A stretch of DNA of 64,000 bases from Sediminibacterium sp. Its GTDB lineage: Bacteria > Bacteroidota > Bacteroidia > Chitinophagales > Chitinophagaceae. The notes under the pieces were generated by a model that was given only the letters and a program-made list of their open reading frames with translations, was not told the origin of the DNA and searched no databases. Numbering within the stretch: position 1 is the stretch's first letter; every line of letters starts with the position of its first letter. Of the stretch, positions 44,818-57,357 are shown in pieces. The position numbers and the translations under genes are program-made. The stretch spans positions 1-64,000 of the forward strand of contig JAFWCB010000005.1 in NCBI GenBank assembly GCA_017537025.1. Reading direction: 5' to 3'.

Positions 44818-45231
44818 TTAAGAATATATTCTTAAATTATTTCCAACCAATGAAGTATTGTATTGTCGTAAAGGTGTGTTTGCCGGGCCCTTTGTAACAG
44901 CACCAGAAGTATTGAAAGTGGCTCCGTGATTTGGACAATAAAATTGATTATTATTTGGCTGGAAATTTACACTGGTTCCTTCATGGGTACAAGCTGCCGA
45001 AACAGCAATAAAATTACCAGTTATAGTTTTAGCAACTATTAATCCATTGCTATACAGATAACCCCCATTAGTGGTTAATACTGCGTTAGCCGGCTGAGTG
45101 AGATCTAACGTAAAATCCACATTACTTGGTGCCGTTGAGCCTATGTTTTTACTACACCCTTCAAAACAGGTTGCCACAACTATTCCACCTGTTGCCATTC
45201 CAATTGATGATAAAAACTCTTTTCTATTCAT
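44818..45231 (-). CDS. Rieske [2Fe-2S] protein, membrane-anchored
   Basis: The 137-residue protein has an N-terminal export signal (residues 5-22; lipobox-like cysteines at 22 and 26) and a Rieske domain. Cluster ligands are C81-T-H83 and C99-x2-H102. The extra disulfide cysteines of high-potential Rieske proteins (after CTH and within the second box) are missing, so a lower-potential or ferredoxin-like cluster is likely. GPANTPLRQYNTSL is the typical C-terminal strand. It is the last gene of a minus-strand cluster with haem lipoproteins, YceI and DUF5777 proteins, pointing to electron transfer in the envelope. Confidence 0.9.
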   Translation of the reverse strand: MNRKEFLSSIGMATGGIVVATCFEGCSKNIGSTAPSNVDFTLDLTQPANAVLTTNGGYLYSNGLIVAKTITGNFIAVSAACTHEGTSVNFQPNNNQFYCPNHGATFNTSGAVTKGPANTPLRQYNTSLVGNNLRIYS

Positions 45232-45247
45232 TTTTACTATTATGCTA

Positions 45248-46159
45248 TTATTTGAGTCCTTTCGGTTTTACAATAGTGAATACCCTTGAAATATTGAACC
45301 CAAAATGAATATCCCCATTATTCCACTTCCCAGTAGTTTCTGTGATAAATGTTCTTTCTGTCATACCGGTTGAATTTGTGAAATGCAATTGAAAAACATG
45401 CCCACCGGTTTCAATATCCACACCAATTGACAGTGAATTACTAAAGCCGGATAATTTTTGCAATTGATAAAAATAATCGGTAGTAATATTCACTCGTTTA
45501 CTAATTCTTATCCGATTACCAATACCTATGGCAAAAAGGTCGTTGGGATCAGTAGCTAACGGTACGTTATTATAATGAATAACCGTTGGCGTTACTTGTA
45601 ATGAAAAATAATCATTAAACTTCCTGGCGACAAGTATTTGATGATAGTATGAAAATTTATCCGTGTAGTAATAAGTAATTCCGGCTCCCGCATTGTTGTC
45701 GTCGAGTGTTCGCCAAATCATACCTCCTGCATAACTTATTGAAATTGGCATATTTATTTTCCCTGTTGACTGACGCACTATTCTATATTTCACAAAACCA
45801 TCTACTTGTTTTTGGTAAGTGCTTCTACCTAATCCAATCATCAATCTATTTGTAATACCATAGTCTAAACTCATTCTCATAGATGCCTGATCCAATCCGA
45901 ATAAATTATATAATCCATCATTTACTTTTCCAAAACGATGATTTATTTTAAAATCTAAAATGCCTTTCCCTACATTCTCAATAGAATGCACGTTTACAAT
46001 TCTTGTAGTTTTGAAGATAGCAGTTGTGATATCAGTTGCCTTTTTTTTGGCAGCACTATCTTCTTTGTCTTGTAGTTTAAATAAATCTATTTCTTGTTGA
46101 GAAAATAGGCAACACCAATAAAATAAACAAAGGGGTAATAAGGTTATTCTTTTACTCAT
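45248..46159 (-). CDS. DUF5777 family outer-membrane beta-barrel protein
   Basis: The 303-residue protein starts at 46159 (signal peptide about 1-20, LFSQQE) with a single base between it and the YceI stop; the frame extends upstream to 46228 but would overlap YceI. The rest is strongly amphipathic beta strands with the DUF5777 pattern: VNVHSIENVGKGILDFKINHRFG, LFGLDQASMRMSLDYGITNRLMIGLG and RKFNDYFSLQVTPTVIHYNN. It probably forms an outer-membrane barrel. Neighbours are YceI and Rieske proteins. The role could be export or a pore for the redox partners (inference). Confidence 0.85.
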   Translation of the reverse strand: MSKRITLLPLCLFYWCCLFSQQEIDLFKLQDKEDSAAKKKATDITTAIFKTTRIVNVHSIENVGKGILDFKINHRFGKVNDGLYNLFGLDQASMRMSLDYGITNRLMIGLGRSTYQKQVDGFVKYRIVRQSTGKINMPISISYAGGMIWRTLDDNNAGAGITYYYTDKFSYYHQILVARKFNDYFSLQVTPTVIHYNNVPLATDPNDLFAIGIGNRIRISKRVNITTDYFYQLQKLSGFSNSLSIGVDIETGGHVFQLHFTNSTGMTERTFITETTGKWNNGDIHFGFNISRVFTIVKPKGLK

Positions 46160-46160
46160 T

Positions 46161-46700
46161 TTAGAATTTGCTTGTGATATTGATTGTAGCTTCTGCGGCA
46201 ATTTTATCTCCAATATATAAACCCGCAATTTGATAGTCTTTCAGCTTTATTTTAAACTCTGATAACAATATCACCTTACCTCCTGTGATATTTATTTTTC
46301 CGGTAGTATTAATTTTTTGACTAACTCCATGAATGGTTAATATACCATCTGCTGTAACGTCATAATTTCCATCTATTTTATAATCTATCGGCTTTGCAGA
46401 TCTAATGTATCCTTTGAAATCAGATTTTGGGAATTTAGTACTCTCTAAATAGTTTTCATTAAAATGATCTTCCATTAATTGGTTTTCGAAGCGAAACCCT
46501 TTTATTAAAATACTAAAAACTATTTGCCCTGTATTTGTCAGAAACTTACAATCGGCTTCATTATTAGTGGCAGCAATTTTTTCGATTCCGCCGGTAGCAT
46601 TAAATTTTACTTGTGCCGACTTAGTTGAAAGTAGTTGCTGTGCAGATACGGTATATTGTATCAGCATTATCAAGGCTATGCTAAATATTAACTTTTTCAT
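46161..46700 (-). CDS. YceI family protein, secreted
   Basis: YceI proteins form a small lipocalin-like barrel that binds long isoprenoid or fatty molecules. The 179-residue protein has a signal peptide (about 1-20, VSAQ) followed by the YceI strands (SAQVKFNATGGIEKIAATN, FENQLMEDHFNENYLESTKFPKSDFKG, DGNYDVTADGILTIHGVSQKI). It starts in a four-base overlap (ATGA) with the OB-fold gene stop, so translation is coupled. In context it might carry a quinone or polyisoprenoid for the redox proteins, which is an inference. Confidence 0.88.
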   Translation of the reverse strand: MKKLIFSIALIMLIQYTVSAQQLLSTKSAQVKFNATGGIEKIAATNNEADCKFLTNTGQIVFSILIKGFRFENQLMEDHFNENYLESTKFPKSDFKGYIRSAKPIDYKIDGNYDVTADGILTIHGVSQKINTTGKINITGGKVILLSEFKIKLKDYQIAGLYIGDKIAAEATINITSKF

Positions 46701-47116
46701 ATTTTTTGTTTAATGATTATCGCATCTTTAATTTTTACATCTGTTGTAAACCCAATACAAATTCCTTTTACGATTATGACAGTCTGTGGTTTAATATTTG
46801 TTGTTGATTTTAGAGTACAATACACTGAGCTAAAGGCATCTTGACTTTGTAATGTGAGGGTTGAAAATCCATCTTGATTTTTATCGATTTGAGTAACAAT
46901 ACCTGTAACTTGAACAGCCTTATTTAAATATTTAAGGTTTGCCATTTTCTCATTTGTTTGGTATTCTTTTACGATATCTACTGCTGCAATTGGAATGGCA
47001 ATCTCATTATCAATTTTACGATGATTGTTTTTTGAATATATAAAAACATAATACCAAGTAGCAGCTACTGAAATAGCTGCTACTGCTATAATTGACAAGA
47101 CAACTTTTGTTTTCAT
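46697..47116 (-). CDS. OB-fold (tRNA_anti-like) membrane-anchored protein
   Basis: This 139-residue protein has an N-terminal membrane anchor (about 5-26) and then a small beta-barrel resembling the OB-fold 'tRNA_anti-like' family (AVQVTGIVTQIDKNQDGFSTLTLQSQDAFSSVYCTL, TVIIVKGICIGF). Such lone OB-fold proteins are frequent in Bacteroidota lipoproteins. The start at 47116 (MKTKVV) fits a two-codon gap from the preceding stop; the open frame begins at 47140. It has no catalytic motif. Being sandwiched between haem proteins and YceI suggests a part in the same assembly. Confidence 0.75.
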   Translation of the reverse strand: MKTKVVLSIIAVAAISVAATWYYVFIYSKNNHRKIDNEIAIPIAAVDIVKEYQTNEKMANLKYLNKAVQVTGIVTQIDKNQDGFSTLTLQSQDAFSSVYCTLKSTTNIKPQTVIIVKGICIGFTTDVKIKDAIIIKQKI

Positions 47117-47117
47117 A

Positions 47118-47480
47118 CTAATTATTTGGAGCACCTGCATTTATCCAAGTTTGAATTTTCTTAATATCGCAAGTAGCTAGTTTATTTCCGCCTTTTGGCA
47201 TTGGTGATGCTTGTCCATTCTGTAAAATAGAATTGATTAGCAAGTTATTTTTAACATAATTCAGTGTGCTTGCATAGGTATCAAGTTTAATAGATGCCCC
47301 GGCAATCGCTGTGCCCCCGTGGCAACTATTACAATTTGTATTTAAAATTGGCAAAATCGTTGTGCTGTATTTGATATTTGCAGTGTCGCAAGTGGTTGTT
47401 GGATAAATAAGTTCACTTTTATCGTAGTAACAACTTGTAAAAAAGCAACAGACTATAATTAGGATGATAGTATTTTTCAT
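47118..47480 (-). CDS. c-type cytochrome-like haem lipoprotein (one site)
   Basis: The protein (120 residues) has a lipoprotein signal (FTSC17). One haem-binding CxxCH (C50-N-S-C53-H54) is visible, with a likely axial methionine M94 in PMPKGG. A C-terminal TCDIKKIQTWINAGAP segment completes the single domain. The whole mature part resembles the second half of the neighbouring 229-residue protein, so the two derive from domain duplication. Located on the outer face of a membrane, it should transfer electrons, but the partners are not known. Confidence 0.85.
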   Translation of the reverse strand: MKNTIILIIVCCFFTSCYYDKSELIYPTTTCDTANIKYSTTILPILNTNCNSCHGGTAIAGASIKLDTYASTLNYVKNNLLINSILQNGQASPMPKGGNKLATCDIKKIQTWINAGAPNN

Positions 47481-47488
47481 GTACAGTT

Positions 47489-48178
47489 TTATTTTGGCAT
47501 TCCCGCATTAATCCATTTAGTTATTATTTTAATATTACAATCACTCATTTTGGTTCCTTGTGGCATCCGTTGAATGGCCGGCAAGGTAGCATCGTGATTA
47601 ATTGCCTTTAAGAAAAGTGTTGTGTTGGCAGAAATATAAGCCTGAGATGAAGCATATGTGCCTAAGTAAACATTACCTGAACCCGGTGCGTTGCCATGAC
47701 ATCCATTACAACTATTAGCAAATATCGTTTGGACAGCCGAAGTATATGTGAATTTTGAAGTATCACATCCTGTTGGGCAAGTATTGTTTAACGCCCCAAG
47801 TGTAATCCATTTTTGTATAAGAGCAATTTGTGTTGCTGATAGTTGTGGAGAACCTGCAGGCGGCATTTTATTATTAGTAATAATCTTGAAATATTTACTA
47901 TTAGTCGGATTACCAGGTATTATTCCTTGCATAATTGTGGTATAATCAACTAATACTATACCATCTGCTCTTGAGGTACTGTTGTGGCACCCCGCACTGG
48001 CACAATAACTTTGGTACATTGGCAAAATTTCTGTTTGAAAGCAAATAGAATCTGTTGGGGTAGAACTTCCACCACCCGTTCCTCCCCCGGAATTGCCAAC
48101 AGTGCCCGGCTCTAGAATAGTATGCTTACAAGCAATAACTATAGCTATTAGCGTAAAAATGGAAATTATTTTTTTCAT
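47489..48178 (-). CDS. Two-module haem lipoprotein (CxxCH and atypical CX4CH)
   Basis: The 229-residue protein has a lipobox (VIAC17), a flexible glycine-serine linker (25-42) and two cytochrome-like modules. Module 1 carries an unusual C59-x4-C64-H65 and M105 (MPPAG). Module 2 has the standard C157-N-G-C160-H161 and M205 (MPQG). Each ends with a WI-x-x-GA helix. Residues 144-229 align with the adjacent 120-residue protein. It starts 34 bases after a sigma-like promoter shared with the sigma factor gene. It probably receives or passes electrons at the outer membrane (inference). Confidence 0.85.
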   Translation of the reverse strand: MKKIISIFTLIAIVIACKHTILEPGTVGNSGGGTGGGSSTPTDSICFQTEILPMYQSYCASAGCHNSTSRADGIVLVDYTTIMQGIIPGNPTNSKYFKIITNNKMPPAGSPQLSATQIALIQKWITLGALNNTCPTGCDTSKFTYTSAVQTIFANSCNGCHGNAPGSGNVYLGTYASSQAYISANTTLFLKAINHDATLPAIQRMPQGTKMSDCNIKIITKWINAGMPK

Positions 48179-48211
48179 AAGATATGTTTACCGTATTCCC
48201 TATAGTTGAGA

Positions 48212-48237
48212 TACAGTAAATTTTTAGAAAAGGTTGC
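48212..48237 (-). promoter_or_regulatory. ECF-type promoter of the haem/Rieske operon
   Basis: On the minus strand GCAACCTTTT (48237-48228) is followed by CTAAAA and, 16 bases after GCAACC, TGTA (48215-48212). AAC in the -35 element and this spacing are usual for ECF sigma promoters. The 26-base block is identical at 22 positions to one before the ECF sigma gene (50024-50049). The first haem gene starts 34 bases downstream. Confidence 0.6.
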
Positions 48238-48248
48238 CTCTTACTCTA

Positions 48249-49433
48249 TTATTTTCTTTTAAAGTTGTAGCGCAGATTAAAATAAATGCCTACAGAACCT
48301 AAATTTTTATGCCCTTCATTTAGTTCTTCTAATGGTAACTTAAAAGTTGGATCAATTTCTAGATATAAAGATTTATTTAATTTAAGACCTATACCGGTAC
48401 TTACTACAAGGTTATTCAAAATATGAGGTCTATTATTATCGTCCGGATCATCATTACTATTGGTAGTTATTTGAGTGGTATTATTTAACAAAAGCTTATA
48501 AGTGTATTCCTGATTTAAAAATATGTGTGATGACATCCCCATCGAAGTAATCCAACTAATTTTTTTGGATGGTGTTGCATTATATCGAATAGCAAGAGGA
48601 ATCTCTATATAATCTACATAGCCCATAGCATCTATAAGTTTTAAAGTAGTGTAAGATGGAATATTAGAAGGTACTTTAAAAGAAAAATCATCTCCGTTAT
48701 GATAAACAGGACTATGCACATAGTTTATCCCAGTGCGTAAACTAACATTTTTTGTGACCCGATAATTGATACCTAAACCAATAGATGTAGCCAAGTAATG
48801 AATAGCATTAACATTCGGAAAGTTATAATCTTTTCCATAAGATATAATTAAGCTAGTTTTTGATTGTTTACTTATGCTTTCTGTAGATGTTTTTATTTCT
48901 TGTTTAGGAGTATCGATAATTTCCGATTTAGTACTGATTTTCGCTATTACTAAATTACTATCGGTAGATCCTTTGCTGGTATGATCGACAACATTATTTA
49001 TATCATCACTCGTTTCGGATATGCGACTGCTCGCAAGATCTACGCTATCATTATTGCTATTTTGGGAAGGGTGCGTGTTTATATGATCAATACCGTGGTT
49101 TTTAACTTTTACAGTTTCTTCAAGTGTTATCGAATTGGATTGTTTTTTAATAGATTTTGGGGGTACTTGTTGTTTTTTATTAGTTAAACTGATATTCGTT
49201 GCTTTAGTTTGATTTATTCCGCCGTTATTTTGGGTATCATATAGTTTTATTGAAATAATTGAAAAAAATATTGGCAAAAGAAACCAAGCAAATAAGCTTC
49301 TTTTCTTTATCGTTTTTATCTTATTTAATTGTATTTCTACTTCGCTCCAATTAGGTATAAATTTGTCGATTTCTTGATTCTCAAAAGCAGTTCGACTTAT
49401 TTTATCTAAATTTTCATCATCAAAATTATTCAT
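48249..49433 (-). CDS. Anti-sigma-like membrane protein with C-terminal beta-barrel
   Basis: The 394-residue protein is encoded right after, and eight bases into, the ECF sigma gene. Residues 1-43 are polar and may bind sigma. A transmembrane helix follows at about 46-62 (LFAWFLLPIFFSIISIKLY). A long, serine/threonine/lysine-rich periplasmic linker runs to about 190. The C-terminal 200 residues are a beta-barrel-type outer membrane domain (SIGLGINYRVTKNVSLRTGINYV, IEIPLAIRYNATPSKKISWITSMGMS). I infer that it holds sigma inactive until a signal arrives. A shorter hypothesis is a plain outer membrane protein with an N-terminal anchor. Confidence 0.75.
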   Translation of the reverse strand: MNNFDDENLDKISRTAFENQEIDKFIPNWSEVEIQLNKIKTIKKRSLFAWFLLPIFFSIISIKLYDTQNNGGINQTKATNISLTNKKQQVPPKSIKKQSNSITLEETVKVKNHGIDHINTHPSQNSNNDSVDLASSRISETSDDINNVVDHTSKGSTDSNLVIAKISTKSEIIDTPKQEIKTSTESISKQSKTSLIISYGKDYNFPNVNAIHYLATSIGLGINYRVTKNVSLRTGINYVHSPVYHNGDDFSFKVPSNIPSYTTLKLIDAMGYVDYIEIPLAIRYNATPSKKISWITSMGMSSHIFLNQEYTYKLLLNNTTQITTNSNDDPDDNNRPHILNNLVVSTGIGLKLNKSLYLEIDPTFKLPLEELNEGHKNLGSVGIYFNLRYNFKRK

Positions 49434-49965
49434 ATGCAGTATTTTGGTCTAATAATTTTTTTAGGTGCTCTCTCGCCTTAAATAAATTTGACTTTGAGGT
49501 ACCTGTTGAAATATTTAGTATATCAGCTATTTCTTGATGTGAATAGCCGTCTATTGCATAAAGTTGAAAAACTGTTTTATATGCTTTAGGTAATAAGTGA
49601 ATACATTTAATAATTTCATTATAATTGAAATTATTAAATGCATTCAAATTCACATGCTGAAGTTCGCTATCGTTTAACTCGTCTAAACTTTGATAATTGT
49701 GTTTAAATTTTTTATTGTAGTTTATACAATTATTAATAACTACTCGTTTAATCCAAGCTTTAAAACTGATTTCCGTGCACTCGAATTTGTCTAAATTGTA
49801 ATTATCTATTTTAGTAAAAACTCTCATAAAGCTATCTACAGTTAGATCTTTTACATCTTGCTCGGAGTTGGCATAGCGATAGCAGATACTTGTTACATAT
49901 TGTTTCAATGCTTCAAATAGTTGCTGCTGCGCTTTTCCATCATTGTTTTGGCAGCCGATTATCAA
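49426..49965 (-). CDS. ECF-type RNA polymerase sigma factor
   Basis: The 179-residue protein has sigma-70 region 2 at about 20-85 (YANSEQDVKDLTVDSFMRVFTKIDNY) and region 4 at about 115-172 (LPKAYKTVFQLYAIDGYSHQEIADILNISTGTSKSNLFKAREHLKKLL). The lack of regions 1 and 3 is typical of ECF sigma factors. It shares an eight-base overlap with the anti-sigma-like gene. The sequence upstream matches the promoter of the haem operon, which fits autoregulation. Regulon members other than this cluster cannot be seen. Confidence 0.9.
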   Translation of the reverse strand: MIIGCQNNDGKAQQQLFEALKQYVTSICYRYANSEQDVKDLTVDSFMRVFTKIDNYNLDKFECTEISFKAWIKRVVINNCINYNKKFKHNYQSLDELNDSELQHVNLNAFNNFNYNEIIKCIHLLPKAYKTVFQLYAIDGYSHQEIADILNISTGTSKSNLFKAREHLKKLLDQNTAYE

Positions 49966-50023
49966 AAATTTAACCTGCTCTGAAGTAATACTTAAATATT
50001 AGTTTAATAAACGGTAATAGTAG

Positions 50024-50049
50024 TACAATAATATTTTAAAAAAGGTTGC
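50024..50049 (-). promoter_or_regulatory. ECF-type promoter of the sigma factor gene
   Basis: GCAACCTTTT (50049-50040) and, 16 bases after GCAACC, TGTA (50027-50024) match the site before the haem operon at the same spacing (22 of 26 identical by hand alignment). It starts 59 bases upstream of the sigma start codon, consistent with self-activation. Confidence 0.6.
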
Positions 50050-50100
50050 TTTTGGTTAATAGTTTTCGCATTAAGAAAATTTAGGGTAACCTAGCCCGAG

Positions 50101-53100
50101 CTACTGCGCCAATGAAATTCTTACATTGATACCTGCTCGGGTATTGGTTATAGGTGCCGAAGTAGAGATATAGGGTACTACCCTCCTCTGATCAAAAAAG
50201 AATTTGATATTGATACGATTATTCAATACATAATCTATAGAAGGTTGTATTGTTACTTCTTTTTGCCCGCCGGTACCATAGGCATTACTCTGATCTAAAC
50301 GGCTATTACTGATTGTTACATCCCTAAATGATAAATCTAATTTCATATTCAAATCGTTCTGCAATTTTTTTCCTTTACCACCGGGTAATTTAAAAGGTAA
50401 ATTAAATCCTCGCTTTCGCCAGCTTACTCCCATGATCCATTCTGTACTTCTGCTTTCACTCAACTGATAATCAATTAAACTCAAACTTAACTGTCGGCTC
50501 TTGCGATACTCTAGATTCAAGCTGAGTTGCTTCACCGTTGTAATATCTACTTTCAATAAGGGCTCAAATCGTTCGGCCATACTTATATTCGGCACAAGGA
50601 AGAAAGGAATAAAATTACCACTCACCGTATCAATAAAACCGGGTGCGCTAAAGCGGAAAGGATCTTGATATAGTAAGGCACTGCTAAAACTATTCATGCT
50701 CAATTGCCCGTTATAACCATGACTTAGTGTGATATTCGTAAATATGCTAGACAATTCAGGTATTTTGCTCAAACCTGTATACGTTAATCTCCAATTGGGT
50801 TTTGGTAGTATGCCCCGGAAAGGGTTTGAACTGATTGTTTGCGAAGCATTTTTAATTAAGGCAACACTATTCGCATCTTTACCCGTATACGCTGCCAAAA
50901 AAGAGGATATCAAAACATCTTGTGAATACCTTCCATAGCCTCGGGCAAAACCATCTGCCGTAAATTTTTGACCTGCCGGAAGTGCCTGCCAATAAGGGTT
51001 CTGCTCAGCTACCCGCTTCGATATCAGAATACGGTTATTTTGAAACTGCTGGAATGTAGCAGATAATTCATTCGGGTTTTGCTGCCCGAATAAAGTTCCA
51101 AATGAAATATAGGAAACACTAAAACCTCCACTAAACAAAGGATTTAAAATTCCGAAATTATTACCCGTACCGGTTGTGTCTTTAATCAAGGCACTATAAT
51201 CTTTCGTAAATGTTTTATCTACAGTCAAATCAATAATCAACTCTCTGATAGGTTCTATTTGAGCTGTAATATTTAATCGTTGCTCAAAACTCTGCCTGTA
51301 TAAAAAGTTAAACGTACTATCTTTTGTAAGTAACCCTTTTGCAATTTTACTATTGATCCAATCGGGGGTTGGTTGCTTCCCAAACACATAATCTAGTCCC
51401 GGAGCCATAGATTTGAAATTCTGTCCGATAAACTGGGTACTATCCATATATCCGGGTAAACGGCTCCTATAATTCTCTCCGTAGTTAATAGAAATATTCC
51501 GGAACATGGTCACAAATTTACCTGCCGTTCTTTCAAAGCCATTTAACTCAGGTAATTGTCCGGCTCTACTCAATTTGTCAGCTAATCGTAAATCTCTTCG
51601 TTGCTGTCGCCATTTTTTTAAAGCATCCGTTCGCTTAGAACCTGTTAAACCTTTCAGTACTTCTTCCTTAGGTGGAAGAACAGCCCCTAAACCCACATTC
51701 GGAGGCAACTGTTTTGCAGGATTATTTTTTAATTTAGGTGGAGGAATATTATCTATTGCTCGCAACCATTTGAACTTATTATAGAGATTACCAAAATTGA
51801 ATTGGGCATTGAAGTTGTTTTCTTGAGAGTTTTCAATGGTATTACCTAAATTAATCGCAAGCCGGCTAGCTCCTATCCAGTTATAACTTGTACCATAAGT
51901 GTAGCGGGCATTGATCCAATCGGCAAAAGGAAATTTATTTAAAGGGATATTATAATTCAATAAAGCTTTTTGTTGATAAAGTGTATTTCTTCCTCCTTTC
52001 AAAAAATTATTTTTTACAGAGTCTTTCTTTTCTTTGTTATCAATTCTTCCGTATGGTTCGTCTATGCGAGCATTATTTGTTGCATTAAAATCAAAATTTA
52101 ATGATCGGGTAAGATCCCAACGCATATTATAAAAACGATCGAACGTAAAATATTTATCATAGGTGGTATCTACCCTATCTACTTTATTGCTATAGGTACT
52201 TACAATACGAGGTATGAATTCACCAAATTGTCGATTTATATCTGCACGAAAACTTAGGAATGAGGGTTTCAAATTAAAATTCGCATCTCGGATAAATGCC
52301 AGCCATGGCGAGCGTCCTTTGATCCACTTTTTAAAGGGTTCTTTGAAGGTACTTTGCCCCACATAGGTGTAGCCAAAACCCATTCTTTGTCGGGTAATTT
52401 TATTTTGGGTGATTACTGGACTCGTATGGGCTGTTTGGGAAAAGGAATAACTAAAATCGAAATTGCTCAGTTTTAATAAACCGGGTTTAGTATTACCTTG
52501 CATCACTCGTACATTGGTAAAGTTTAATGTTTTGATCGTAGTTTGATCAATGGCTGCTTTACGAATAGAATCTCTCGCGGTTCCGGTACTTCTGGCTAAT
52601 TTTTCTTTATATCGAATATCCAAATCATAGGGGTCAAATTCCGGGGTAAGGGTATTCAAATTATAGCTGGCATAAACAGGAATAGACAGCCTGGCTTTCT
52701 TAGGAGCTAATTTACCGGCATCAATATTGGCTGCAATATCAAATTGAGTGAGATTATCTTTTGCACGTTCATTTACTCGTTGTTCTAATGTACCGAAACC
52801 TTGTGTATACTTATTGGCAGAAACGGAAACCTTTCCGAGATCGGCCAATATCAAATCAACCCTTCCTAACGCAGCCCATCCTCCATTTTCATCTAAACCT
52901 GCGAGCCTTAATTCGTTGATCCATACTTCTGTACTGGCTGTTACGGCGCCTGTGCGTTGTGGATTTTCAACGGCAACTAATACCCCTCGTACTTCTCCCA
53001 AATTTGGATTCCCCATAATGGAAAAAGTTTTATTGCCTACTATTTGTCTGAATATAGAGGTAACAGAAGCACCTGAGTTATTTCTATTCAATTTCAAATC

Positions 53101-56100
53101 GATCAACTGTCTTAGATCAAAATCAATATTGTTAGCCGCAGGCCATACTTTGTCTTCTTGTCCTCTTGGGTAAGAACCCGGCGGAGTAACTTTTAAAGGG
53201 ATCTTGATTTCATAATAATTATTCAAAAAATCTTGACCGATACGCATCACAATATTTAACTGATTATCGGTAATGGGATTCACACCTGTTACGGATTCGG
53301 CATGAATAAACATTTCCATACGCGCATATCTTCTGATATCTAAATTCAAAGTTTTGAAAACAGCTCTAGTATTACCGGGTTGCAAATTGTTAATCCGCAT
53401 ACTGAGGGATTGCTCATTCTGCAAAATATTTACACCATTATTACTCAAACTCTGTACCCGCTCAATACCGGGAGGTATTAAATAGTTTACCGGCTGCCTG
53501 CTACTATTTTCTTCGAGATTTACTGCCAGTGTGTTAAAACTAGTACCGCTTGTGTTGTTTATGGGTGTATAAGAACCAGTAGTGTCTACATTGTAAATGA
53601 ATTGTCGCCATTGATTACGTACTAAATCAAATCGTGCCAAACGAACCACTACCGAATCTTCGAAATCGGTCATATACATTCTTACAAAACGGATGGATTT
53701 AAAATCGGGTATATTACCCACTTTACGCGAGTAACCGCGAATAGGTACACGAAATAAAAACCAATCTTCGGTACGTGTTACTCCATCTGCTGAGTTTACG
53801 GTTACTCTTCTTTTGTCTGTGATATAAGGCGTTAAACCAACATCCATACCGGGTTTCAGCGGAATTTCATATTCATAATAAGCTTCTGTTTCATTCAATG
53901 TATTATCTCTATTCAAATCTTCATTATCAGGATAGAGTGTAGCGGCTGAAGTAAATTGTCCGCCTGTAGTTGCAACGGGTGAATTTCCTTGTGGATTATT
54001 AAAGTTTTTATACCTGCCTAAAATACCTGTTCCTTGCGCATCATAGAGCCCATCTCTAAACCAGCGGTAGTTATCATTGGCAGGGTCATTCAAAGCATTT
54101 TGATATACGATCGAACCCAGACCAAAATTGTTAGCCAACCTTCTGAGGATATAATCTTTTTTTCTACGTTCTCCATCATCATCAATTCCATCAAATCCAA
54201 CATCCTGAAAAGCTCGATCATTAGGGTCGTTACTAAAAGCTTGCGTAATTTGAATGGGGTTCACAGGTGTTTTACCCCAGGTATTAGAACTATCTACTGC
54301 TGCAGGAATATTGGGCGTATTCATTCCATTTTCATAAAATCTTTTTCCATCTTTCAAAATATCTTCACTCACATTTCCAAAATTCAACACCATTTTACCA
54401 CCTGTGCTTCCAGGGGTCATTATAAAAGGATTCTGCATCCAGAATTCCACAAACTCAATATTATTAGTTTCGAAATCGGTTTGATCGATAGCACGCATGA
54501 TGCCACCCCATCTGGCAGCAGGGTTACTCAAGCGGCCGGCTGCATTGATTTGGGAAGGGTTTGTTTCAAAGTTATAAGGGCCTTTTTCTCTTGGATAATA
54601 AGCCAAATCAAATGTAGCTGTTTGTACATCAGTGATATTCGTTGTTCGTTGCGGAAATAATTCGTTTGTAAATACTTGTCGCACCCGCGGATCACTCAAT
54701 TCTGTAAGGTTTCTGCGTAAAGGATTATTCGGACTATTCTTATCCTGTAAATTAGGTTCAATGTTATACCAAGCCATCTTTGCACGGTTTCTATTATAAT
54801 CAATAGAATCCGTAAGTGTTGACTCGGGAAATTTCGTAACACCTTGTGGTGTAGAGGCCAATGCCCAAGCTACAAATGGGAAACGTAGATCAATGGTGGC
54901 TCTTGTTCCTTCAAAATCATCTATATAAATTAATCCCTGCTCGGCCTTACCAATTTGAGGGGGGTGACCGGGTTTTAAATAAGCAGCTTCGCCATAAGCA
55001 TTGATAGAAGATTTTGCTTTGGTAGCATAGAAAGGTAATTTATTCAACAAACGAGTAAGTGAGGGTAATTCAGATTTATAATTGAAATCGAAACCATACA
55101 TAGTATTTCGAATAGGATCATCACCATAACCCATTTTGGTAAAAAAAGGTCTTTCGCCCAAACGCATTACAGCGGCACCTAGTGTTAATTTCTTACTGGC
55201 TAAATAATCTACCCGTAATGCTGCAAAGCCACGTTGTTGAACACCAAAGCCGATATTATTTTCAAAAGAAACTTTTACAGGAACATTGGAACTTAAAATA
55301 CCCTGATTCAAAATTTTAACTGTTCCCAGGTTATAATCTACCACATAATCTGAACCCTCTCGCAGTATTTGTCCGCCTGCTGTTACCGATACCGACCCTT
55401 GCGGAATATTAAATGTATTCAAATAAATTTCTGAACCCCCACCCGTACTTCTCACCTGCCCTTGCATAATAAATCGATTTACATTGGCAAAAGTTTGTGC
55501 AATGGCTTTGATAGAGTCATACAATTGATAGTATAAATATTTTTGTTTAGTAGCAGTTGGTAATCCTGTAAAAGCAAGCGTATCCAAATCTCTACCAAAA
55601 GGTTCTAGTACCGGGAACACCACTCTACCTGTTTGTGGCAAAATGGTAAATCCATCAATATAGTCAAATACACCATCGGGCTGCGGATCGTTTCTATTAT
55701 TTAAGCGATCTAAATTTAAGATGCGTAAAAGTGGTTGTCCGTTAACTGCTTGATTTGTTTCCGGTAAAAATCTTTTTAAGCCACCACTGGGTTCTTCATA
55801 TAAAACATTCAACTTAAAATCATCTCTCGAAATACCTCCAAAAACATCCAGCGAATAAACGTTCTTCATCATCCAACCCCAAATAGGCGAATTAACGCGT
55901 TGTGAAGTTGCTTTCAGCAATTTTAAAAACAATACTTTCTGTACGCCTTTAGTAGAATCGAGCGCTACATCTTGTGAAAACTCCCCCACTTGAAATACTC
56001 TTCCATTATAGGTGTATTGAAATGCAACGGCTAATACCTCATCTGCTTGCAACTGTGTATTTACCGATAAGAAGCCTGCCTGCGGATTAAAATAATATTC

Positions 56101-57357
56101 ATTGGTGGTTAATTTACGAGCAAACGTTTTTTCGTAATCATCTACCGGTCTTAACCCTCTACCATTTAAAATACTATTAATTAATGCAGGGTTTCTGGTA
56201 TTGGGATCATTGGTTAATGAAGTGTATAAAGTATTGGCATTGTTAGCAGGTAAATCACCGGTATTATTAGATTGAATGATGGGATTGAAGGGTCGGCTCT
56301 CGCCTAAGTCCATTAAACCAACAATATCTCTGGCGTCTGTAGTGGCTCCGGTTCTATTAGTAACCCATACTTCCATTCTTTGAATTTGCACTTGCGAGTT
56401 TACAATGGGCAAATTGCGCATGGTTTTATTAAAGTTGGTCCTAAAATAAGTACCTAATAAAAAGTGACGATTCTCTTCATAATCATCTAATCTTTTTTGA
56501 AAAGACTGAGCAGCAGCGCCTCCTTGTAACGAGACTGTTTGACGCGCAGAACGTTGATTAGCGATTGCACCGGTTACGAATACTTTACCAAATTGTAATT
56601 GCGTTTTTACACCGAATAAATTTTGGGTGCTGGGTAATAAAGTACCGCGCGACTGAAAAGAAATATTTCCAGCTTCAATGCTCTTAATAATTTCATCATC
56701 CATACCCTTATAATCGAGTTTGAGTTGATTATCAAAACCCAGGTTGGTAAGTGTATTATAATTGATGGGGAAACGCAGTTTATCTCCAATACTGGCATTC
56801 AGATTAAGGTTGGCATTCATGTCGAAATCGAAGCCGCCATTTCTTCTGGCTCTTTCAGGTAGTGTTGGATTCTTGATATTTTGTCCTTGATAACCAGCCA
56901 AGATATTTACTTCGCCACTAGGACGAATATCTACTTTCAAATTATTACCTGTTAATCCGAATATGCGATCGAATAATTTATCATAAGCACGTAAGGGTGG
57001 CCGGGCTGTTTTTTTATTCAGTGCTGTTAATGCTTCGGCTCTTCTTTTAAAATAATCAGTTTCTGCCCGTTGCGCTTGCAGTCGTTGGAATTCTTCAAAA
57101 GAAATAGAAACGGGTTTACGATAGAAGCTATTCCCAATTTTTTCAACTACATAATAGCTTTTTGTTTTGGGATCGTACTCGATCTTTTGTTTGATGAGTG
57201 AGGTATCTCTGAGATCGAAGGGGTTTTTGCTGGTGTTTGAAAAAATATCACCCCGCCTATCGTTAATAGGAAAACGAAGACTATCTCGCTGCTGTGCATG
57301 AGTAGTGGCGAGTGTAAAAAGAAAAGCAAAAACTAAATAATTGCAGTATGCTTTCAA
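50101..57357 (-). CDS. sprA: Gliding motility / type 9 secretion translocon protein SprA
   Basis: SprA (Sov in Porphyromonas) is the giant outer-membrane barrel that forms the type 9 secretion pore. The 2418-residue length fits the family. A signal peptide (about 1-21, THAQ) precedes the N-terminal domain, with motifs such as KVDIRPSGEVNILAGYQGQN, FDMNANLNLNASIGDKLRFPINYNT and GNISFQSRGTLLPSTQNLFGVKT. The remainder is a long series of aromatic-rich strands, with IYIDDFEGTRATIDLRFPFVAWALAS and VWINELRLAGLDE as typical blocks. It ends RAGINVRISLAQ. It follows ruvA by 38 bases. No C-terminal T9SS cargo sequence was spotted elsewhere in the window. Confidence 0.97.
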   Translation of the reverse strand: MKAYCNYLVFAFLFTLATTHAQQRDSLRFPINDRRGDIFSNTSKNPFDLRDTSLIKQKIEYDPKTKSYYVVEKIGNSFYRKPVSISFEEFQRLQAQRAETDYFKRRAEALTALNKKTARPPLRAYDKLFDRIFGLTGNNLKVDIRPSGEVNILAGYQGQNIKNPTLPERARRNGGFDFDMNANLNLNASIGDKLRFPINYNTLTNLGFDNQLKLDYKGMDDEIIKSIEAGNISFQSRGTLLPSTQNLFGVKTQLQFGKVFVTGAIANQRSARQTVSLQGGAAAQSFQKRLDDYEENRHFLLGTYFRTNFNKTMRNLPIVNSQVQIQRMEVWVTNRTGATTDARDIVGLMDLGESRPFNPIIQSNNTGDLPANNANTLYTSLTNDPNTRNPALINSILNGRGLRPVDDYEKTFARKLTTNEYYFNPQAGFLSVNTQLQADEVLAVAFQYTYNGRVFQVGEFSQDVALDSTKGVQKVLFLKLLKATSQRVNSPIWGWMMKNVYSLDVFGGISRDDFKLNVLYEEPSGGLKRFLPETNQAVNGQPLLRILNLDRLNNRNDPQPDGVFDYIDGFTILPQTGRVVFPVLEPFGRDLDTLAFTGLPTATKQKYLYYQLYDSIKAIAQTFANVNRFIMQGQVRSTGGGSEIYLNTFNIPQGSVSVTAGGQILREGSDYVVDYNLGTVKILNQGILSSNVPVKVSFENNIGFGVQQRGFAALRVDYLASKKLTLGAAVMRLGERPFFTKMGYGDDPIRNTMYGFDFNYKSELPSLTRLLNKLPFYATKAKSSINAYGEAAYLKPGHPPQIGKAEQGLIYIDDFEGTRATIDLRFPFVAWALASTPQGVTKFPESTLTDSIDYNRNRAKMAWYNIEPNLQDKNSPNNPLRRNLTELSDPRVRQVFTNELFPQRTTNITDVQTATFDLAYYPREKGPYNFETNPSQINAAGRLSNPAARWGGIMRAIDQTDFETNNIEFVEFWMQNPFIMTPGSTGGKMVLNFGNVSEDILKDGKRFYENGMNTPNIPAAVDSSNTWGKTPVNPIQITQAFSNDPNDRAFQDVGFDGIDDDGERRKKDYILRRLANNFGLGSIVYQNALNDPANDNYRWFRDGLYDAQGTGILGRYKNFNNPQGNSPVATTGGQFTSAATLYPDNEDLNRDNTLNETEAYYEYEIPLKPGMDVGLTPYITDKRRVTVNSADGVTRTEDWFLFRVPIRGYSRKVGNIPDFKSIRFVRMYMTDFEDSVVVRLARFDLVRNQWRQFIYNVDTTGSYTPINNTSGTSFNTLAVNLEENSSRQPVNYLIPPGIERVQSLSNNGVNILQNEQSLSMRINNLQPGNTRAVFKTLNLDIRRYARMEMFIHAESVTGVNPITDNQLNIVMRIGQDFLNNYYEIKIPLKVTPPGSYPRGQEDKVWPAANNIDFDLRQLIDLKLNRNNSGASVTSIFRQIVGNKTFSIMGNPNLGEVRGVLVAVENPQRTGAVTASTEVWINELRLAGLDENGGWAALGRVDLILADLGKVSVSANKYTQGFGTLEQRVNERAKDNLTQFDIAANIDAGKLAPKKARLSIPVYASYNLNTLTPEFDPYDLDIRYKEKLARSTGTARDSIRKAAIDQTTIKTLNFTNVRVMQGNTKPGLLKLSNFDFSYSFSQTAHTSPVITQNKITRQRMGFGYTYVGQSTFKEPFKKWIKGRSPWLAFIRDANFNLKPSFLSFRADINRQFGEFIPRIVSTYSNKVDRVDTTYDKYFTFDRFYNMRWDLTRSLNFDFNATNNARIDEPYGRIDNKEKKDSVKNNFLKGGRNTLYQQKALLNYNIPLNKFPFADWINARYTYGTSYNWIGASRLAINLGNTIENSQENNFNAQFNFGNLYNKFKWLRAIDNIPPPKLKNNPAKQLPPNVGLGAVLPPKEEVLKGLTGSKRTDALKKWRQQRRDLRLADKLSRAGQLPELNGFERTAGKFVTMFRNISINYGENYRSRLPGYMDSTQFIGQNFKSMAPGLDYVFGKQPTPDWINSKIAKGLLTKDSTFNFLYRQSFEQRLNITAQIEPIRELIIDLTVDKTFTKDYSALIKDTTGTGNNFGILNPLFSGGFSVSYISFGTLFGQQNPNELSATFQQFQNNRILISKRVAEQNPYWQALPAGQKFTADGFARGYGRYSQDVLISSFLAAYTGKDANSVALIKNASQTISSNPFRGILPKPNWRLTYTGLSKIPELSSIFTNITLSHGYNGQLSMNSFSSALLYQDPFRFSAPGFIDTVSGNFIPFFLVPNISMAERFEPLLKVDITTVKQLSLNLEYRKSRQLSLSLIDYQLSESRSTEWIMGVSWRKRGFNLPFKLPGGKGKKLQNDLNMKLDLSFRDVTISNSRLDQSNAYGTGGQKEVTIQPSIDYVLNNRINIKFFFDQRRVVPYISTSAPITNTRAGINVRISLAQ

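Follow-up and report, generated by a model that had tools for sequence, protein, structure and literature searches.

A predicted trans-envelope sigma switch and its matching promoter blocks at a putative envelope redox operon of Sediminibacterium sp.

The sigma/barrel pair and described trans-envelope switches

The systems closest to the one described here are Dma/Das of Bacteroides thetaiotaomicron and EcfO-Reo of Bacteroides fragilis and Phocaeicola vulgatus, in which the gene of an extracytoplasmic function (ECF) sigma factor lies beside that of an anti-sigma factor built of a helix, a tether and an outer-membrane barrel. The available passages on Dma describe an N-terminal domain, a transmembrane helix, a disordered tether and a C-terminal outer-membrane barrel, with genes adjoining those of ECF21 sigma factors (PMC13088901), and the excerpts on Reo of Phocaeicola describe the same layout (PMC13114119, PMC9308784). 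According to one such excerpt (PMC13114119), prolonged oxygen induces EcfO-Reo in B. fragilis. A comparable pair was found in the window, by which is meant the whole stretch of 64,000 nucleotides analysed (Sediminibacterium sp., assembly GCA_017537025.1, contig JAFWCB010000005.1, positions 1 to 64,000), part of contig C19 of a genome of 3.19 Mb. The pair is followed by an operon for cytochrome c lipoproteins, an OB-fold protein, a YceI lipocalin, a DUF5777 barrel and a Rieske lipoprotein, and the sequences make it probable that a sensor which would extend from the surface into the cytoplasm switches on these widely conserved, unstudied envelope electron-carrier genes through a matching pair of promoters. 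The effects reported for Dma/Das and EcfO-Reo in the passages available concern vesiculation, polysaccharide utilization loci, nigD genes and O-antigen length, whereas here the pair stands beside a cytochrome/YceI/DUF5777/Rieske module. Those passages give no promoter code, and the word 'motif' is absent from the available text of PMC13088901.

The two genes lie on the minus strand and their open reading frames (ORFs) overlap by 8 bases. The sigma gene (49426..49965) starts with TTG and encodes an ECF sigma factor of 179 amino acids (TIGR02937, 84.4 bits against a cut-off of 42.9). Its partner (48249..49433) had been called anti-sigma-like in a preliminary description made from the letters of the window; the pairing with the sigma gene stands, but the label had to be corrected to a protein with one helix, a long linker and a C-terminal barrel, predicted to be a trans-envelope anti-sigma factor of the Dma/Reo kind. 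Behind the N-terminal domain this protein has a single hydrophobic segment (from residue 46, hydropathy 1.97) and a polar linker, in which 71% of the 100 residues after the helix are disorder-promoting against 53% in the barrel part, judged by composition only. The barrel scores 26.0 bits with Pfam OMP_b-brl_2, 1 bit below the cut-off of 27.0. The layout recurs among the 49 barrel proteins compared below: the strongest early hydrophobic segment, located by hydropathy only, starts at residue 44-89 in all 49 and has a mean hydropathy of at least 1.6 in 42 (L188 has additional segments), a polar linker follows it, and at E<=0.01 OMP_b-brl_2 was matched by 22 of the 25 members scanned, the window included, and OMP_b-brl by 19. 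The sensor of the window, so built, seems to extend across the whole envelope, with one end at the cell surface and the other in the cytoplasm.

Promoter blocks and sigma clades

Upstream of the sigma gene a predicted promoter consists of AGCAACC as the -35 element, 16 bases and TGTA as the -10 element (50024..50050, minus strand). The predicted promoter of the redox operon has GGCAACC, 16 bases and TGTA (48212..48238, minus strand); it lies in the gap of 70 bases between the barrel gene and the gene of lipoprotein A and its block ends 33 bases upstream of the ATG of the latter. The resemblance of the two blocks that the preliminary description had noticed was borne out by direct comparison of 50024-50049 with 48212-48237, in which 22 of 26 positions are identical and the spacing is equal. 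The pattern RGCAACYWWTT-N12-TGTAY, which was shaped on the already known sites, has five exact matches in the genome, the block before the sigma gene being one of them, and all five lie at two sigma/barrel loci, the window and a paralogous locus on contig C17; with one mismatch allowed the matches number 12 in total against six for the reversed control. A looser pattern, GCAACCTTTT-N12-TGTA with up to two mismatches, gave 50 matches, three of them exact, against 47 for the control.

The C17 locus (L009:705-14292, G000:C17) carries three sites of the TGTA type, namely before the sigma gene, before an operon for YncE-like and DUF305 proteins, and about 290 bases before the first gene of a third operon, which encodes heavy-metal-binding-domain, HlyD/CusB-type and outer-membrane efflux proteins. 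This pair perhaps governs a metal-envelope regulon with the same promoter class. At another sigma/barrel locus of the genome, on contig C29 (L010), which continues with cytochrome, YceI and DUF5777 genes, the -35 element and the spacing are the same and the -10 element is CGAT both before the sigma gene and before the operon. The pattern RGCAACCWTT-N13-CGAT has two exact matches in the genome, both at the C29 locus, and with one mismatch five in total, the control also giving five. A one-mismatch site of the looser TGTA pattern at C29:96204, 199 bases before a plus-strand gene of 1153 amino acids, was set aside as a probable chance match; it overlaps the start of an opposite-strand gene that we take to be S12-like. 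The C29 barrel gene (L010:2939-4136, G000:C29) is split in two ORFs and is intact in the relatives L128 and L130, which might be explained by an assembly error or by decay.

Among the 20 sigma genes found in the genome, 18 of them readable, a site precedes each of the three whose barrel partner is strong; before the other 15, GGCAACC does not occur and AGCAACC occurs once, at -226 with CGAT at spacing 17. A motif common to all ECF sigma factors is ruled out by the lack of GGCAACC in these 15. Bare GGCAACC was rejected as a marker of the regulon because it is too common alone, with 310 places in the genome against 200 for the reversed pattern.

The comparison was extended to 68 named DUF5777 loci, 20 regions of the same family chosen for close barrel and DUF5777 matches, and 20 other barrel regions. 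In 111 loci 49 sigma/barrel pairs were found, 48 of them distinct because L169 and L123 are one locus; L169 was kept among the 49 pairs of the 7-mer count and dropped from the operon-upstream count, both trees and the region comparison. The operon-upstream and DUF5777-locus counts also leave out L195 and L208, whose DUF5777 matches are weak and on the other strand. With no preset motif, GGCAACC was the top-ranked 7-mer from -300 to +90 of the pairs and occurred upstream of 35 of the 49 (34 of the 48 distinct), to be compared with a mean of 1.2 and a maximum of six in 500 first-order Markov resamplings. In front of the module, GGCAACC was found in 10 of 26 operons with the pair directly upstream, in none of 48 with neither a sigma/barrel nor a LytTR gene in that place, in none of eight with a LytTR regulator directly upstream and in none of seven at contig ends. 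In the group of 48 the pair lies one gene further up in L134 and a LytTR gene lies nearby in L091 and L125. The full promoter pattern precedes six of the 26 linked operons (shuffled mean 0.24), five times in the gap and once, in L170, inside the barrel gene.

Most other linked loci have the block before the sigma gene only, and the predicted second, operon-proximal promoter is a trait of a few lineages. In L170-L188 the next gene begins 8-84 bases past the barrel gene, so that the operon may be read there from the sigma promoter alone. Second sites precede other genes in L009 and L189, and the -10 element before the sigma gene agrees with that before the downstream genes in each of the window, L009, L010, L128, L130, L206 and L241. 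In L010, L123, L128 and L130 the sigma/barrel/cytochrome/DUF5777 locus follows the same gene of 713-716 amino acids, presumably elongation factor G-like. Two Bacteroidota-like loci, L123 (titled Williamsia) and L085 (titled Comamonas), are probably mislabelled or misbinned.

A -10 label was assigned to 33 of the 48 sigma factors, as CGTA in 17, CGAT in 13 and TGTA in three. With three states two changes are the fewest possible, and these labels need no more on the sigma tree; when 'none' is taken as a fourth state, 12 changes are needed against 24.4 in shuffled labels. The predicted -10 type follows the sigma clade. Region 4.2 of sigma factors reads the -35 element, and in the comparison it is the least variable of five parts (mean entropy 0.85, excess information on the -10 type 0.08) and is conserved between the window sigma and the family that shares the -35 element. 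Region 2 has an entropy of 1.7-1.8 and an excess information of 0.30-0.36, and the linker between the sigma regions has the highest values of both (2.71 and 0.41), so that the information tracks variability and relatedness and proves no contact. In region 2.4 (17 rows) the CGAT sigma factors read [IV]YTAID, those of the CGTA type [IV]NTAID, VNTCID or INNCID, and those of the TGTA type INNCIN.

In a wider class of barrel pairs (29 loci sampled, of which L244 and L250 belong to the same family) GCAACC occurs in 15 of the 24 scorable sigma upstream regions, and no hexamer with three or more G/C is more frequent, a count that has no shuffled control. Unlinked operons were checked in two genomes of the same genus, with four of six DUF5777 matches fetched. 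Two of them, L226 and L229, have GGCAAC[CT]-N15/16-CGTA about 80-90 bases before the first gene and no sigma gene neighbouring, and the sigma/barrel pairs that these genomes carry elsewhere (L206, L241) have CGTAT before the sigma gene and CGTA in the site that follows the barrel gene. Both sites, two cases of four, are compatible with control in trans. A literature search for GGCAACC with sigma factor and Bacteroidetes gave a sole match, which in its available text concerns TonB transporters in cyanobacteria.

The cytochrome/OB/YceI/DUF5777 module

All eight genes of the preliminary description were recovered in their places on the minus strand, with their families matched by profile scores. 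Lipoprotein A (47489..48178) matches Cytochrome_CBB3 in two stretches (37.4 bits against 27) and has one CX4CH (CASAGCH) and one CXXCH (CNGCH), and lipoprotein B (47118..47480), with a single cytochrome c domain of 23.1 bits, below the Pfam cut-off of 27, has one CXXCH (CNSCH), which gives three candidate haem sites in the operon. They are followed by an OB-fold (tRNA_anti-like) protein with a hydrophobic stretch at its N-terminus (46697..47116; 53.7 bits against 23.5), a YceI lipocalin with an apparent signal peptide (46161..46700; PF04264, 50.9 bits against 23.7), the DUF5777 outer-membrane barrel (45248..46159; PF19089, 317.5 bits against 23.1) and a Rieske lipoprotein with the cluster ligands CTH...CPNH (44818..45231; 45.1 bits against 20.3). 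The junctions after lipoprotein A are in order a gap of 8 bases, a gap of 1, an overlap of 4, a gap of 1 and a gap of 16. These gene families are compatible with an envelope redox chain. Just upstream of the sigma gene and on the same strand, window positions 50101-57357 encode a protein of 2418 amino acids which we take to be SprA-like, of the type IX secretion system (T9SS) translocon type.

The structure model of the DUF5777 protein (pLDDT 87.1) shows 12 long strands, and the folds closest to it are those of the outer-membrane channels KdgM, FapF and NanC. The modelled fold is channel-like, which implies no function, and unlike the fold the sequence gives no link to these channels, since a DUF5777 profile of 41 rows had no match among solved-structure sequences at E up to 1; YceI had none at E 0.01. 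A porin-cytochrome conduit of the MtrCAB type is a multihaem cytochrome inside a large porin. These conduits share with the window an outer-membrane barrel encoded together with c-type cytochromes, but the window has a small barrel, mono- and di-haem proteins and no multihaem cytochrome, and such a conduit is ruled out here by the size of the barrel and by the three haem motifs in two lipoproteins. A nearer likeness in content is BcnA-LcoA of Burkholderia cenocepacia, in which a YceI lipocalin is genetically linked to a cytochrome. In the available passages YceI lipocalins carry isoprenoids including ubiquinone-8, and BcnA acts with cytochrome b561 against lipid peroxyl radicals (PMC9113575). 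The partner of BcnA is a membrane cytochrome b561, whereas the window has c-type lipoproteins, a Rieske protein, an OB-fold protein, an outer-membrane barrel and an ECF sigma switch.

Of 195 genomes sampled from the family to which the window genome belongs, 166 have DUF5777, whose profile matched none of 14 control genomes. Near DUF5777 in 89 loci are YceI in 81, a cytochrome in 79, an OB-fold gene in 67 and all three in 60, and the taxa carrying such loci, many of them metagenome-assembled, include Chitinophagaceae, Mucilaginibacter, Saprospiraceae, Cyclobacteriaceae and Prolixibacteraceae. Judged by gene neighbourhood, the cytochrome/OB/YceI/DUF5777 set is a Bacteroidota module that has been linked to sigma/barrel pairs several times. 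The link was seen in 27 of the 89 loci, a figure that is no prevalence because 19 of the 27 were picked for close barrel and DUF5777 matches, the other 70 loci giving eight. A LytTR response regulator stands at 11 of the 89 loci, in nine of them with a Y_Y_Y-propeller histidine kinase (both families were read on one exemplar each), and the predicted regulator of the module is exchangeable. A single origin of the sigma link is ruled out by eight changes on the DUF5777 tree, at least six of them forced by starred branches (87 rows, two short rows being absent), so that the link would have been gained or lost repeatedly, with sigma factors of three -10 types.

Some variations of the module were also observed. 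Two DUF5777 domains occur in each of three ORFs of 599-608 amino acids (G063:C73:29767-31365, G058:C1:1307151-1308746 and G141:C1:3570056-3571669), possibly a fused double barrel. In L191 and L205 a Rieske gene directly follows the sigma/barrel pair and there is no DUF5777 gene in the fetched region; the Rieske protein may be a recurrent partner of the switch. In the lipoprotein A homologues (25 shown, e.g. window 47489-48178, L102, L104 and L098) a motif like C-x-H-[DE] recurs after the lipobox cysteine, as CKHE, CQHE or CTHE and as CKHT in the window, and might be a sorting signal or a ligand. A surface-export signal was looked for on the cytochrome lipoproteins, and no clear acidic run was found after the lipobox, which is present in 84 of 129 sequences. 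A literature search that had most subscription papers outside its reach found no paper naming DUF5777, none that mentions YceI, cytochrome c, Bacteroidota and electron side by side, and none with four or more of the terms anti-sigma, YceI, cytochrome c, Bacteroidetes and Rieske.

Proposed explanation and its rivals

We consider it moderately probable that the locus encodes a redox module of the envelope whose expression is induced through a trans-envelope sigma/anti-sigma switch. The cytoplasmic N-terminus of the barrel protein would hold the ECF sigma factor while the barrel sits in the outer membrane, as its layout and the likeness to Dma and Reo suggest, and by analogy a signal at the outer membrane would release the sigma factor. 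The freed factor would then read both the operon and the pair that includes its own gene, starting at the two RGCAACC-N16-TGTA promoters, the step that we hold to be very likely. The operon would supply the c-type cytochrome lipoproteins, the OB-fold protein in anchored form, YceI, DUF5777 as an outer-membrane channel and the Rieske lipoprotein, as predicted from the sequence. The purpose of the module is put forward more tentatively, and with some doubt: it may keep an isoprenoid quinone carried by YceI redox-active between the membranes, the haem and Rieske proteins exchanging its electrons, so that oxidants or lipid radicals in the outer membrane are quenched. This redox protection is favoured because YceI proteins carry quinone and BcnA works with cytochrome b561. 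The sigma regulon supposed in the preliminary description was supported by the comparison, in which the -35 element tracks the pair and is found before none of the 48 operons that lack the pair directly upstream, while the -10 element follows the clade.

Several observations weigh against this explanation. GGCAACC is missing upstream of 14 of the 49 pairs and from two weak barrel pairs of the own genome (20 and 29 bits), which have no site; 15 of the 48 sigma factors have no -10 label, and five of the 33 labelled sites lie 2-47 bases inside the longest sigma ORF, where the true start must be further downstream. Of the 10 GGCAACC sites before linked operons six are inside the barrel gene and four in the gap (window, L010, L123, L130), and a gap site close to the operon exists in just five of the 26 linked loci (the same four and L128, which reads AGCAACC); this count lowers our confidence in the sigma-promoter step and slightly raises that in a chance origin of the blocks, and leaves that in the explanation as a whole unchanged. 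The block had been expected upstream of homologous operons, and the expectation holds in part: near the operon it was found in these five, in most other linked loci it stands before the sigma gene only, and where there is no pair it is missing, as a sigma-specific promoter would be. The nearest relative, L071 (DUF5777 93% identical), has a degraded operon site with GGCAACA and a shorter spacing, and its sigma upstream region is lost at the contig end; L071:1-65 is presumably sequencing-adapter sequence and the N-terminus of its sigma ORF probably artefactual. L123 reads CGAA before the sigma gene and CGAT before the operon, and the unlinked operons L227 and L228 of the same genus have no site at the position seen in L226 and L229. 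The module also occurs without a sigma factor, Rieske is near DUF5777 in just three of the 89 loci, and no cytochrome b561 was matched among the eight window genes scanned.

A chance likeness of the two blocks, or a recent duplication without promoter function, would agree with the loss of the operon site in L071, with the few operon-proximal sites and with genome patterns that were shaped after the sites had been seen; it is nevertheless very improbable, as the k-mer count put GGCAACC first with no preset motif, the -10 types follow the sigma clades, and no block was found before the 48 operons that do not have the pair immediately upstream. The switch might also belong to a general outer-membrane stress response, in which damage to the envelope would trigger a Dma-type sensor and the redox genes would be no more than one part of the repair. 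Available passages tie the Dma and Reo systems to vesiculation and envelope stress (PMC13088901, PMC9308784), and the paralogous C17 sites precede YncE/DUF305 and heavy-metal-binding/efflux genes, but the recurring neighbour is specifically cytochrome/OB/YceI/DUF5777, with pairs of three sigma -10 types, and we judge this reading unlikely. It is improbable that DUF5777 is a KdgM/NanC-like channel for an anionic substrate which, once taken up, would lose its electrons in the periplasm to the cytochromes and the Rieske protein, since the operon has neither a catalytic enzyme nor a SusCD pair and the common barrel fold suggested by the model shows no function.

The main rival is surface electron exchange, in which the lipoprotein cytochromes and the Rieske protein would pass electrons over the periplasm and DUF5777 would house or export the last carrier to an extracellular donor or acceptor. 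The extracellular partner suggested in the preliminary description has indirect support from a related protein with one CXXCH in seven homologous loci. Its gene lies between OB and YceI in L098, L100, L102, L103, L104 and L112, whereas in L087 it adjoins Rieske, and the three scanned (L087, L100, L102) all match choice-of-anchor V and a T9SS sorting tail, so that a haem protein may reach the surface along with the module. However, the window operon has no such protein, it carries only three haem motifs, and the DUF5777 model is small beside porin-cytochrome conduits. Surface exchange is a similarly unlikely reading, weaker than redox protection. An equally speculative and wider picture, to which we give little credence, is a periplasm-to-surface redox relay of Bacteroidota composed of YceI-carried quinone, lipoprotein cytochromes and a DUF5777 channel, to which some relatives would add a haem protein exported by the T9SS; it would be gated by a surface-to-sigma sensor whose fixed -35 and clade-specific -10 elements would keep paralogous switches separate.

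The trans-envelope switch over a redox module, the account preferred here, would bring a promoter rule readable in the sequence to a class of trans-envelope sigma switches, by which their targets may become predictable from genomes. Moreover it would tie DUF5777, an uncharacterised barrel family, to cytochromes and YceI, so that its function becomes testable.

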